64,000 bases of DNA. It comes from Polytrichum commune (lineage: Eukaryota; Streptophyta; Polytrichopsida; Polytrichales; Polytrichaceae). A model generated the notes under the pieces. It was not told the origin of the DNA and made no database searches. It was given only the letters and a program-made list of their open reading frames with translations. Shown here one piece after another: positions 45,648 to 53,208 of the stretch (the stretch's first letter is position 1; each line of letters starts with the position of its first letter). The stretch lies in contig OX485806.1 in NCBI GenBank assembly GCA_950295325.1, positions 10,850,001 through 10,914,000 of the forward strand. The letters run 5' to 3'. The translations under genes were made by a program, and so were the position numbers.

Positions 45648-48600
45648 TTATGTGGCGGCACCAAGCTTTGGTCGCCAGTTCTCCCCTGCATACACGGCTT
45701 TGTCACCAAGTTCCTCCTCAATCCTCAACAGCTGCCAATAGAACAGAACATCTTATGATCAGAGGTATCTTAAACTACATCCCTTCAAAATCCACTGCAA
45801 CAATAACTAAGGACATTAGAGTTATCCTCAAACTCAACATGACTTCTGATTGGAAGACCTTCCATATTCGGTAAGTTTTCAGTGCATGTTTGGAGTTAGT
45901 GTGGAGGTTTGAACAAAGACCACATTCCATATTGGTTCGTTGAGGGTCAAACTCATTTTGGCATGCTAAGAGGTGCTAAAATAAGTTTGGCCCGCAATAG
46001 GTAGCTCTTCATTCAATTTCAACCACTACCTCCAAGCATGCACCACAAGTGGAAATTGAAAATAACTTCGTATGCAAAAGAACCGATGGGAAATCTTAAT
46101 GGAGTTATGGGATGAATATATTACTTGAAGTGAAATCTTGGTCAATGCACAACTTAATGGGGAGCATCAAATTTATGATTCTGAAGTTTAGCTCTTATCT
46201 TCATGTCAGAAAGTACAAAGAAACCTTGAAGTCATGGTTGACTGATATGAAGACTCAGATGGATTATATGAACTGGACCATACTCCTAAAACTAGCAGAA
46301 CAGTCTTAAGACTGAGACTAAGGGTGCTTTAAACTAGAGCTTGAGGGCCCGTGACCATTGAAAACTAAAACCTCTCATTTATGGAAAATGCTGAGACCGT
46401 TCCACTCTACTTTTACACTAGAGCTTGAGCTTCTAAGGGATCAAGGAATTTTGAATGGATGAAAAACTCAGATGGAGTCCTACATGGCATGCAATGGATA
46501 ATGTTTCATAGTCTACCAGTTTTTGCGTCAAGCCCTCCACTTTGAGGTGGGTAACACAAAACCAAAAGACCAGGACATTTCAAACTCTCACAACCCTTGT
46601 TTTCTTATAGCGTACTGTGTAGAAGGCCCCAGATGACTAGGATGGTCAAGAAATAGCATTCGGTTGAGAGCCCGGTCACGTATGTCCTTAAACTACACTT
46701 CAAAGCCCATGACCAGCACAAATTGCAACTTAAAGTTTCCATGGTACAGCTTGGAATGAGTTTCAAGGGCCCTCACAATTCCATGGTCCTTGGCCATCAT
46801 GTAACCTGGACCATTTGGTGGATTCACACTAGGGCCCAAGACCAAAGAAACTCCAAAATCAAGTGATCCTATTAACTTTGACCCAGACCCTAGTGTAAAC
46901 CCGCCGTTAGACTACTGAGCAGGTTGTCTAACCTGAGAGGTAAACAAATACCTGGTTATATTTCGCAAGCCGTTCACTTCGGCAGGGTGCACCTGTCTTG
47001 ATCTGTCCGGTGGAGAGACCAACAGCTAAGTCTGCAATGAAAGAATCCTCTGTTTCTCCACTCCGATGGGATGCCATCACTCCCCAGCCGGCCTTCTTCG
47101 ACATGTTTACAGCTTCAATCGACTCAGTGACTGTTCCAATCTGATTCACCTGTTTTTCCCCAAATCCACAACATTGTGCCACCAGTTTAGAAAAATAATA
47201 TCAATGAAAGGGACAAATACATCATGCCTGCTAGAGTGCAAATTAAGATGTCTTGATTAGTTTGAGAACTGTAATTCCAACCCAAAGCAACATATATGTA
47301 TGGTTAAGGGTCAAAGTTCCCAGTTTTCAGAATTAGGAGAATGCACATGACCAAATCATAGCTGATTCCCACATTATAATTACTTAATCTAAAACCCCTC
47401 CTGAGGAACTCACCCTACAACCAATAAGAATAGACCATCTCTTCATGAAGAAAAAGTAAAGAACTATAAACAATTTGCCACATGTAGGATACAAAGTGCA
47501 GACAACAAGATAGGCACTGACAATGTGAATAATCAATAATGCCAAAAGGGATTGAATTGAAGATTGAAAAAATATGTTAGATTGGATAGTACGCATGTCA
47601 CCAGAAAGTTTATTCTAAGCTTAAAATTGGGATATTGTGAACCTTCAAAAGTAGAGCATTGCATGTCTTCTCCTCAATTGCCTTAGCAACACGCTTTGGA
47701 TTGGTCACAAGGATATCATCCCCCACAACCTGAACCACAAGTGGAATGGGTCATGGATTCCAACTTCCAAGAATCTTTCAAGTGACAAGGTGAACCTCTT
47801 GGTGAGATATGATGCAAGAAAGTTACCATGTGCCTACAATTTGACAATCCGTATATTTCAAATAAACACCAGAATGGCATGGCAGTCTAGAACCCTCACC
47901 TGACATATAGCCAGATCTGTCAGTTTCTTTGTATGATCCCAATCGTCTTGTTCAAATGGGTCTTCGATGGATATAATAGGGTATTCTGTAATTACACAAC
48001 CAGCTTGTAAATAAAGCCATCCCATTCAAAAAACTTACTAATGCATTTCAAAGTCTATTGGCCAGTTACCATCAAGATGTCGCAACATTAAAAATGTAAG
48101 TCATCCACATCTTACCTTTACAAAACATTTTATACATCTCAATCATCTCCATGCCAGACTTAACCTCTGCACCAGAATTGTTGGGTGTCTTGAAATCTAG
48201 ATCATATCTCTTGTCCGCTGCACAAACAAAAACCAACTTGTGAGGATGACCAGGATGCACTAATCCCTAGGAGGTTCAAACCAATGAGATTTTTTTTTCT
48301 GCCAACTATTTATTGAAGAAATGAGCAGGTAGGTCACGTGACATTTTCAAGCACACCATCATTAAAACCCAAAATATGGATCCTCTCAAGTACCAGAAGA
48401 GATAGAGAGAACATTACTGAGCACTAAAGGCCCAACGGAAAAAATTGAAAACCCTACAGACCAGGCTATGTTTCAGCCACCCTAGAAGCTTCAGGTACAT
48501 GACTCCCCAACCAGACTCAGAGAGGAAGAGAGTATCCATTGCATGGACTTTGATTCACATTGAGAGAGAACATTGATTCAGGACAGAATTTACTGTGACT

Positions 48601-51600: not shown

Positions 51601-53208
51601 ACCTGTAGAGCCTTTTAAAGCCACCATGGAATCCCCATACTCTAATTATGCCCCACTAAATAACCTTGCTTCCATGCCACGAATTGCGCCATCAAAGGCT
51701 TAGAAATACAACTTTGCATGTGCAAGGAATACTGAAGATACAGAGACAGAGAGAGATAATACTTTCCATTACTGTAAAACATTCTGCACTTATGAGCATA
51801 GTCAAGACCCACAGGTTTCAACTCAAACCATGCCTGTCAGAAAAAGCAAAAGATTCAATGGGGTCGATAAAATTCCATGAAGGAAGGAACATCTCAACAA
51901 TTTCCAAACGCATGCAAATCGCATGACCTACAGAGCCTTTTAAAGTCATTATACCTTCCCCACACTCTAATCATGCGCCATTGAATAACCATGCTTCCAC
52001 ATCATCAGATACACTACAAATTGCACCATCAAAGGCTTAAAATCGCAACTTTGCAAAACTGAAGATAGGAATTTCCCCTACTGTAGACCAATCTGCACTT
52101 ATGAGCATAATACAGGAACCTAGGGTTCAACTCAGCCAGTGCCAGTCAGAACAAGCAGAAGATTCAGTGTGGTCAATATAATTTTATAAACTGAAGGGAC
52201 ATCTCAACAATTGCCACACAGATGCGAATCCCATGACCTGCACAGCCTTTTAAAGCCACCATAGCCTCACTATACTCTCATCATGCCCCAGTGGATAACT
52301 TTGCTTCCAAGCTCGTCAAAAACCATGAATATGCACCATCAAAGCCTTAAAATCACAACTTTGCATGTGCGTGAGAAATTGAAGATACAGAGACAGAGAG
52401 AGAAAGGACAGAAGATCATACGATAAAGATGACAGGGTTGGGGCTCTTGGCTTATCAGCACTTATGAGCATAGTAGAGGAACTACGGTTTCAACTCAATC
52501 TATGCCAATCAGAAACAAAATATTCAATGCAGTCGACAGAATTTCATGGATTGAAGGTATTGTCAAAAAATTCCAAACACATGCGAATCTTGTGACCCGC
52601 AGAGCCTTTTAAAAGTAACCATGGTTTCACCATACTCTAGTCATGCCCCATTGAAGAACCTTGCTTCCACACCCACGAATTGCACCATCAAAGGCTTAAA
52701 AATCATAACTTTGCATGTATGTGCACGGGAAAGCTGAAGCTACAGAGACAGAGAGAGATAATAATTTCCACTACTGTAGACCAATCTGCACTTATGGGTA
52801 TAGTAGATGAACCAAGGGTTCAACTCAACCAGTGCCAGTGAAAACAAACAAAAAATTCAATGCGGTCCATCCACTTTTGTAATCTCAACAATTTCCAATT
52901 ACATGCGAATCACAGAAATTCCATAGGCTCTTGAAGTCACCGTAGCCTCACAATACTCTAAGCATGCCCCATTGCATAACCTTGCTTCCACGATCATCAA
53001 ACCCCATCAAATTGCACCGTCAAAGGCTAAAGAATCCCAACCTTGCAAAACCGAACACAGAGGAGGAGAAAGAGAGGGAGAGAGAAAGGACAGAAGCTCA
53101 TACAATAAAGATGACGGGATCGGGGCTCTTGGCTCGAACAGCAGCATTGACAGCATCCTCGATTCGCATCGACAGCTTGTGCTTCTCCAAATACTCCTGG
53201 ACCGACAT
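45648..53208 (-). CDS. ENO3: Enolase, plant ENO3/ENOC type (2-phosphoglycerate dehydratase), complete
   Basis: Thirteen exons: 53208-53104, 50612-50458, 50071-49897, 49746-49675, 49525-49409, 49290-49210, 48945-48869, 48766-48663, 48217-48116, 47985-47900, 47729-47643, 47149-46952 and 45731-45648. They join in frame to 480 residues. Enolase converts 2-phosphoglycerate to phosphoenolpyruvate in glycolysis. The N-terminus [20 protein letters not shown] and the [14 protein letters not shown] segment are the ENO3 hallmark, absent from ordinary cytosolic enolase; no transit peptide is evident. Residues matching yeast Ser39, His159, Glu168, Glu211, Asp246, Glu295, Asp320, Lys345, His373 and Lys396 are all present (Ser84, His200, Glu209, Glu252, Asp287, Glu337, Asp362, Lys387, His415, Lys438). 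Loops [20 protein letters not shown] and SHRSGETED are canonical. All introns are GT-AG except intron 7, which starts GC. Confidence 0.96.
46322..46906. mobile_element. Transposon-like element in the last intron of enolase
   Basis: The left end GGGTGCTTTAAACTAG and inverse right end GGCGGGTTTACACTAG resemble each other and the GGG-GTTTACAC termini of Harbinger-type elements in this window. Flanks read TAA and TTA and do not agree as a duplication. It accounts for about half of the 1220-bp last intron (45732-46951) and, from the intact splice sites, should be removed with it. Confidence 0.45.
48767..48868 (-). other. GC-AG intron in enolase (intron 7)
   Basis: After exon codons for APNIS plus AG, the intron begins GCAGGAAC and ends TTTTCAG. 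No GT donor keeps the conserved NIS-S-NKEGLD frame. The 102-bp length is ordinary. GC donors occur in about one percent of plant introns and often allow regulated splicing. Confidence 0.85.
51400..53060 (-). repeat. Five-copy tandem array of about 330 bp in enolase intron 1, with an exon 1 fragment
   Basis: The block CACCATCAAAGGCTTAAAA recurs at about 51688, 52022, 52335, 52682 and 53017, spaced about 313-347 bp. It is preceded by TGCCCCATTGAATAACC and TTGCTTCCA blocks. Four copies contain ACTGTAGACCAATCTGCACT-type sequence. The third unit (about 52395-52457) also contains a copy of the end of exon 1: its minus strand reads [10 protein letters not shown] followed by GTATGATC, where exon 1 itself reads [10 protein letters not shown] followed by GTATGAGC. 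The array fills most of the 2491-bp intron (50613-53103). Confidence 0.85.

Follow-up and report, generated by a model that had tools for sequence, protein, structure and literature searches.

A plant ENO3-type enolase gene with an intact active site and an N-terminus resembling a Dpy-30-like docking/dimerization domain

Arabidopsis ENO3 is called inactive in the available text of both PMC7479207 and PMC11720000, as the first-pass annotation of the present DNA had stated, although the two papers are not independent because both rest on the same 2010 study (Andriotis). According to the accessible part of the review (PMC11720000), the protein is inactive in E. coli owing to the pair E251/D252, and changing this pair to D251/E252 restores growth of enolase-deficient E. 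coli; the derived nature of the catalytic loss is already partly implied by this published E/D swap. A second described system is the enolase of Chlamydomonas, which the available text on structure 7N6G (central-apparatus C1 projections of the cilium) assigns to the C1b arm, where CPC1 clusters it (PMC9113940). The accessible part of PMC8339350 lists a green-algal enolase among the proteins with docking/dimerization (D/D) domains, so that a D/D domain on such an enolase is already published, and gives a PxxP loop as the hallmark of the R1D2 group of the D/D superfamily. Tetrahymena enolases turned up neither bound to C1b proteins nor adjoining them, and enolase is absent from the C1b of mouse sperm; thus, C1b docking of enolase is not universal. 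In titles and abstracts of the open-licence literature, we found no account that treats land-plant ENO3 as a ciliary enzyme or a D/D enolase, and none that follows ENO3 across land plants, and the taxon figure or supplements of PMC8339350 may already include a land-plant D/D enolase.

Gene structure and catalytic core

The window, i.e., the whole 64-kb stretch of DNA analyzed here, contains an intact ENO3-type gene on the (−) strand (53208..45648), with 13 exons, a spliced length of 1443 nt and a product of 480 aa plus the stop codon, with 0 internal stops. The start codon occupies 53208-53206, an in-frame TAA starts 18 bases upstream of it, and the stop codon ends at 45648; the coordinates given in the first-pass annotation (45648-53208) are therefore exact to the base. 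Exon 1 (53104..53208; this and all following exons on the (−) strand) encodes residues 1-35 and with them most of the D/D-like N-terminal domain (~residues 1-44), and exon 2 (50458..50612; residues 36-87) carries the end of this domain and the substrate loop GASTG, with S84 (yeast S39) encoded at 50468-50466. Exon 3 (49897..50071; residues 87-145) is without an EWGW-type insert near its end and is followed by exon 4 (49675..49746; residues 146-169) and by exon 5 (49409..49525; residues 170-208), which hosts GGSHAGN with H200 (yeast H159; codon 49435-49433). E209 (yeast E168) lies in exon 6 (49210..49290; residues 209-235), and D251 E252 GGFAP, with the codons of the pair at 48900-48895, in exon 7 (48869..48945; residues 236-261). 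The metal ligand D287 (yeast D246) is encoded by exon 8 (48663..48766; residues 261-296), which precedes exon 9 (48116..48217; residues 296-330), while the metal ligand E337 (yeast E295) falls in exon 10 (47900..47985; residues 330-358). Exon 11 (47643..47729; residues 359-387) contributes the metal ligand D362 (yeast D320) and the catalytic base K387 (yeast K345), exon 12 (46952..47149; residues 388-453) contributes H415 R416 S417 (yeast H373 R374 S375) and K438 (yeast K396), and exon 13 (45648..45731) encodes residues 454-480 and the stop codon.

The introns are GT-AG in 11 of 12 cases, with intron 7, which follows exon 7, being GC-AG, and intron 1 contains a partial copy of exon 1. That single non-canonical donor and the partial copy are what could be held in favor of a pseudogene or of wrongly chosen exons, a reading to which we give practically no credence, since the 13 exons together give one uninterrupted reading frame and the product aligns with Chlamydomonas enolase over 473 residues without internal gaps. 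In a Pfam search with 10 of the 21 stop-to-stop frames (≥110 aa) of the window, the only families matched above the curated cut-offs were leucine-rich-repeat families. A degenerate retroelement lies at about 18.6-20.2 kb and may resemble types known from non-flowering plants. One snoRNA and no tRNA were found in the 64 kb.

The catalytic core is complete, with Enolase_N detected at 2.5e-59 (199.6 bits against a cut-off of 35; Pfam) and Enolase_C at 9e-149 (495.1 bits against a cut-off of 21.5). The active site is intact: the window protein equals yeast enolase 1 at 12 of 12 positions, which we take to be the catalytic or substrate residues S39, H159, E168, E211, K345, H373, R374, S375 and K396 and the metal ligands D246, E295 and D320 (yeast numbering). 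In and around the active site, 31 of the 32 positions examined are identical to yeast enolase 1 (reference sequence in agreement with PDB 1ebg at 436/436 letters), and the sole difference, G162->N, lies outside the 12 and is common to Chlamydomonas enolase. The protein shares 268 of 430 aligned residues with yeast enolase 1 and 351 of 473 with the Chlamydomonas enzyme, and chance does not come into question as the origin of the match. The claim of the first-pass annotation that the full active site is kept, made for ten positions, thus extends to 12, whereas its "constant offset of 41-45" to yeast numbering holds for the range and not for the constancy, because the offset is stepwise, with 45 at the substrate loop, 41 over positions 155-246 and 42 beginning at position 295. 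The protein is accordingly predicted, from its sequence, to convert 2-phosphoglycerate to phosphoenolpyruvate.

Probable placement in the ENO3 lineage and the 251/252 pair

Among 68 PDB matches, the best was 7n6g_6G, the Chlamydomonas reinhardtii enolase, with residues 1-473 aligned to 1-473. Residues 1-47 by themselves retrieved one PDB match, again 7n6g_6G (3e-06), and no other at E up to 10, so that the N-terminus is homologous to that of a ciliary enolase. Only 19 of the first 44 residues are identical between the two proteins. Mammalian ENO4 was considered as a close relative and set aside. The N-terminal extension of ~45 residues, encoded in exons 1-2, is of the MSVQEYL type, and that of Chlamydomonas starts MSVQEYI; Arabidopsis ENO3/ENOC presumably has the same MSVQEYL-type N-terminus as the window protein. 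The EWGW/EWGWS-type insert, which we take to be carried by ENO1/ENO2, is missing from both the window protein and Chlamydomonas enolase; the insert is named "plant like pentapeptide insert" in a title cited in the available text of PMC5494301.

We placed the protein in a stopgap tree of 12 rows, in which columns filled in <30% of rows were dropped, both Arabidopsis rows are provisional sequences, and one of seven chosen prokaryotic loci was left out for want of a single open frame with both test motifs. In this tree, the window protein pairs with the provisional Arabidopsis ENO3 (support 95/93), and Chlamydomonas joins these two with a support of only 80/69. The assignment to the ENO3/ENOC group, which the first-pass annotation had based on the N-terminus, draws further support from the missing insert, presumed to be present in ENO1/ENO2, and provisionally from the tree pairing with its provisional Arabidopsis sequences. 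The path from the window protein to the provisional Arabidopsis ENO2 is shorter (0.43) than that to the provisional ENO3 (0.64), as would be expected of an ENO1/ENO2-type enolase that had acquired an N-terminal extension, but this difference arises because the ENO3 branch is long, and given the 95/93 pairing and the missing EWGWS-type insert we regard such an origin as very improbable.

At 251/252, the numbering of the Arabidopsis pair, the window protein reads D251/E252, the active order; the inactive order E251 D252 is absent here, belongs to a single member and is not known as group-defining. Arabidopsis ENO3 presumably has further active-site changes (GKHASN, GDSSG and SHRC). The window protein could still be non-catalytic, a pseudoenzyme or a regulatory protein of the Arabidopsis ENO3 kind whose inactivity has causes beyond the classical active site, and the only land-plant ENO3 with an assay mentioned in the available text of PMC7479207 and PMC11720000 is indeed inactive. 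Set against this are the active order of the very pair blamed for inactivity and the short branch of the window protein (0.06 versus 0.58 for the provisional Arabidopsis ENO3 in the 12-row tree), and we judge the pseudoenzyme reading improbable. The notion of the first-pass annotation that the lineage was ancestrally catalytic very probably holds, because this N-terminus and an intact site occur together in the alga Chlamydomonas, and ancestral catalysis followed by loss would be the simplest reading of these sequences.

An N-terminus resembling a docking/dimerization domain

A point missed by the first-pass annotation is the likeness, in sequence comparisons, of this "ENO3 N-terminus" to docking/dimerization domains of the Dpy-30 type. 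Specifically, the N-terminal pair (window plus Chlamydomonas) scored 22.6 against human DPY30 (hhalign), a value that none of 200 shuffles reached, nor any of 128 overlapping segments from further along the two enolases (maximum 9.66); for comparison, DPY30 versus PKA RII-alpha yielded 20.0. Against RII-alpha, the score of the pair was a weak 12.3, which 11 of 200 shuffles reached but none of the 128 segments did (maximum 9.59). The window N-terminus alone scored 15.0 against DPY30 (hhalign; the shuffle control pertains to the pair) and had zero Pfam matches at E up to 10, while that of Chlamydomonas had two, Tex55 (0.013) and Dpy-30 (0.035; 14.3 bits against a cut-off of 22), both D/D-type and both below the curated cut-off. 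The loop of the window protein reads SPDP at 28-31 and so departs from a strict PxxP, the R1D2 hallmark that Chlamydomonas displays as PEEP. Viral contigs contained no match to the whole window protein, and the N-terminal pair gave 66 pattern matches and 0 confirmed relatives there.

A helix-turn-helix fold, dimerization and docking are predicted for this N-terminus. In the mechanism that we propose, the ENO3 lineage would descend from a green-algal enolase bearing an N-terminal D/D domain, and the catalytic core would be an ordinary Mg-dependent enolase dimer acting on 2-phosphoglycerate to give phosphoenolpyruvate. Each subunit would contribute one N-terminal helix-turn-helix segment, and the two together may make up a D/D bundle clasping an amphipathic helix of a scaffold protein. 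The enzyme would thereby be tethered, and the same could apply to Chlamydomonas enolase in the C1b arm of its central apparatus. Overall, we consider it probable that the gene encodes a catalytically competent ENO3-lineage enolase, derived from a green-algal enolase with an N-terminal D/D domain, with its D/D bundle docking on a scaffold.

The protein might instead be an ordinary soluble housekeeping enolase, its N-terminal domain a conserved vestige with nothing to dock in this plant. No catalytic position checked in the core deviates, partner and localization cannot be deduced from sequence, and the ENO3 gene persists in Arabidopsis (PMC7479207, available text), all of which would suit such a reading. 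On the other hand, the domain is in frame, begins at the same start residue as in Chlamydomonas and retains 19 of 44 residues. Moreover, genome contigs yielded at least 584 confirmed enolase matches, and in the best segment of each of the 80 retained loci, all labelled bacterial or archaeal, query residues 1-24 were unmatched, which makes the N-terminus unlike a generic enolase feature. We therefore think the housekeeping reading unlikely.

Possible ciliary origin and comparison with known systems

The domain need not imply cilia, since Chlamydomonas presumably uses the same enolase in its cytosol and Arabidopsis ENO3 presumably retains this N-terminus though Arabidopsis has no cilia. With less confidence, the dock could be the sperm axoneme in plants with flagellate sperm, and Arabidopsis ENO3 a decayed remnant of this enzyme. 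Only as a tentative and rather doubtful proposal, land-plant ENO3 would correspond in plants to the enolase of the ciliary central apparatus, intact where sperm swim (the window protein included), with catalysis lost by the E/D swap after loss of flagella and a non-catalytic D/D protein left in Arabidopsis; if true, "ENO3" would be a fossil of the sperm flagellum retained in flowering plants.

In the window protein, a plant ENO3 naturally carries in its active order the pair whose reversal reportedly silences Arabidopsis ENO3, which makes the idea of a decayed enzyme directly testable. Tying the ENO3 N-terminus to the docking domain of a ciliary enolase would offer a concrete reason for the existence of the gene and a reason why activity could be lost where sperm do not swim. 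Should the distribution of ENO3 track flagella, the protein would cleanly exemplify how an enzyme turns into a pseudoenzyme after organelle loss.

Compared with yeast enolase 1 (PDB 1ebg), the window protein shares all 12 catalytic and metal-binding positions, but yeast is without the N-terminal D/D-like domain. It resembles the R1D2 D/D group, including the green-algal enolase (PMC8339350, accessible part), in the N-terminal position on an enolase and in DPY30-like sequence, and differs in its imperfect PxxP and in having no Pfam D/D match by itself. Arabidopsis ENO3/ENOC (At2g29560) has E251 D252 and is inactive in E. coli, whereas the window protein has D251 E252, and the 251/252 numbering in the accessible part of the review (PMC11720000) agrees with that of the window protein. 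The Chlamydomonas central-apparatus enolase (PDB 7n6g chain 6G, 7sqc) is colinear with the window protein from residue 1, has the same type of N-terminus, no EWGW-type insert, and identical catalytic residues at identical residue numbers; the algal protein, whose ciliary location is known, has the loop PEEP, whereas the window protein has SPDP.

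Gene structure and active site of the enolase

The enolase gene, delineated from reading frames and splice signals, is complete on the minus strand (53208..45648), and its 13 exons splice into a 1,443-nt frame of 480 codons plus a stop, to which Pfam assigns Enolase_N and Enolase_C domains. Eleven of the 12 introns are GT-AG; the remaining one, intron 7 (48767-48868, minus strand, 102 bases), is GC-AG with the donor AG|gcagga and lies immediately 3′ of the exon encoding D251/E252. An in-frame stop starts 18 bases upstream of the start codon, so exon 1 offers no transit peptide ahead of that codon and a cytosolic protein is expected from the sequence. 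About two thirds of intron 1 (2,491 bases) consists of diverged direct repeats (51425-53134; 75–89% identical; TRF period about 310), one of which duplicates part of the 3′ end of exon 1 together with its donor (near 52422-52452). When the enolase was searched against the window by tblastn, only its own exons and three chance-level matches (E 5.2 to 7.6) were returned, one being this partial copy.

Aligned to yeast enolase 1 (436/436 residues matching PDB 1ebg), the window enolase was identical at 31 of the 32 positions examined, the sole mismatch being yeast G162, which is N both here and in the Chlamydomonas chain (C. reinhardtii enolase, PDB 7n6g chain 6G). The 12 residues that we take to be catalytic or metal-binding were all the same as in yeast, confirming the active-site match claimed by the first-pass annotation. 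Its offset of 41–45 to yeast numbering held as a range but was not constant, its value being 45, then 41, then 42.

Elsewhere in the window, the minus strand holds leucine-rich-repeat frames divided among three or more pieces (3-3181), which have a transmembrane-like end facing the window edge and may represent the ectodomain of a receptor kinase. A C/D-box snoRNA, snoZ103, lies at 34700-34791 on the minus strand; its 56.2 bits exceed the gathering score of 44. A putative degenerate non-LTR retroelement (18600-20200) has reverse-transcriptase-like and C-terminal zinc-finger-like stretches, with no Pfam match to its C-terminal frame. Tandem arrays lie at 14543-15276 (252-base units, 2.9 copies, 95% matches) and 3905-4722 (187-base units, 4.5 copies, 72% matches).

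Residues 251/252 and placement among plant enolases

In an excerpt, PMC7479207 credits Arabidopsis ENO1 and ENO2, and not ENO3, with enolase activity; excerpts of PMC11720000 report that ENO3 is inactive in enolase-deficient E. coli and that E251→D plus D252→E lets such cells grow, both articles, as excerpted, resting on one source (Andriotis and others 2010). The window enolase has D251 and E252 (codons 48900-48895), as does the Chlamydomonas chain at identical numbering, and thus naturally bears the residue order reported to work. Ancestral activity of the ENO3 lineage is well supported by Chlamydomonas and the published swap. The interpretation in the first-pass annotation is supported in part, and the ancestral catalysis that it proposed is, by the same token, less new than was assumed there; interest now centres on when catalysis was lost and on a possible tie to flagella.

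In a 12-row tree, from which columns filled in <30% of rows were dropped (which should exclude the N-terminal columns, present in three rows), the window enolase paired with Arabidopsis ENO3 at 95/93. Since both Arabidopsis rows were provisional sequences, grouping with ENO3 is only a lead. Specifically, the end branches measured 0.06 for the window enolase and 0.58 for the Arabidopsis ENO3 row, and Chlamydomonas joined the two at only 80/69. Both the window enolase and the Chlamydomonas chain lack an EWGW-type insert, an absence that also separates them from ENO1/ENO2, which we presume to carry it. Such an insert is termed plant-like in the title of a cited work, and the Arabidopsis ENO3 row reads ED at 251-252, agreeing with the excerpted review PMC11720000. 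In the same tree, an enolase from a contig labelled Nanoarchaeota (MAG; L008:5001-5237), found among the prokaryotic genome contigs searched, fell on the eukaryotic side, split from the five bacterial rows (100/100). Possible explanations are lateral transfer, a real relationship between archaea and eukaryotes, and a contig placed in the wrong bin.

Likeness of the N-terminus to the Dpy-30 docking motif

Among 68 PDB matches of the window enolase, the top one was 7n6g chain 6G, aligned over residues 1-473 of both (351/473 identical overall; 19/44 in the N-terminus), and residues 1-47 alone matched this chain only (3e-06). The N-terminal extension was not seen in prokaryotes: none of the 80 loci kept, of at least 584 confirmed matches, matched query residues 1-24.

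In hhalign, the window and Chlamydomonas N-termini as a pair scored 22.6 against human DPY30 over enolase residues 21-41, compared with 8.7 ± 2.0 for shuffles (0/200 as high) and 20.0 for DPY30 versus RII-alpha, accepted relatives. The enolase pair was also divided along its length into 143 overlapping segments, and the 128 starting beyond residue 44 reached at most 9.66. Single sequences scored lower than the pair against DPY30 (window, 15.0; Chlamydomonas, 19.8), and the pair scored 12.3 against RII-alpha, a value that 11 of 200 shuffles attained, whereas the 128 segments beyond residue 44 all stayed below it. The window N-terminus had no Pfam match, and that of Chlamydomonas had only sub-threshold ones to Tex55 (0.013) and Dpy-30 (0.035). 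By the DPY30 comparison, the paired N-termini resemble a Dpy-30 docking motif. The PxxP loop hallmark of R1D2, a group of docking/dimerization (D/D) domain proteins, is fitted by PEEP in Chlamydomonas and not strictly by SPDP in the window enolase.

A further PDB listing also places a DPY30-like stretch on adenylate kinase 7 and NDK5 homologs, presumably ciliary enzymes; such a motif may be a general device by which metabolic enzymes are anchored on the axoneme. Excerpts of PMC8339350 already count green-algal enolase among R1D2 proteins and describe loss of its D/D domain in metazoans. They also describe R2D2 proteins, another D/D group, as present in mosses and ferns and absent from gymnosperms and angiosperms, a statement that does not directly cover enolase, since enolase is R1D2.

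Proposed attachment and comparison with known cilia

The core of the window enolase would perform the ordinary enolase reaction, while the D/D-like segments of the dimer would pair and dock onto a scaffold through one of its amphipathic helices. According to PMC9113940 (in excerpt), the 7N6G structure comprises C1 and its projections in the ciliary central apparatus, and enolase belongs to the C1b arm, where CPC1 clusters it. Chlamydomonas enolase is a C1b arm resident, with its N-terminus as the putative contact. In Tetrahymena, by comparison, Eno1 was reduced in C1b mutants, yet enolases were not found adjoining C1b proteins or binding them; the mouse sperm structure is without enolase, whereas ependymal cilia of the mouse carry tagged ENO4 at their central pair. 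These contrasts indicate that enolase attachment differs among lineages.
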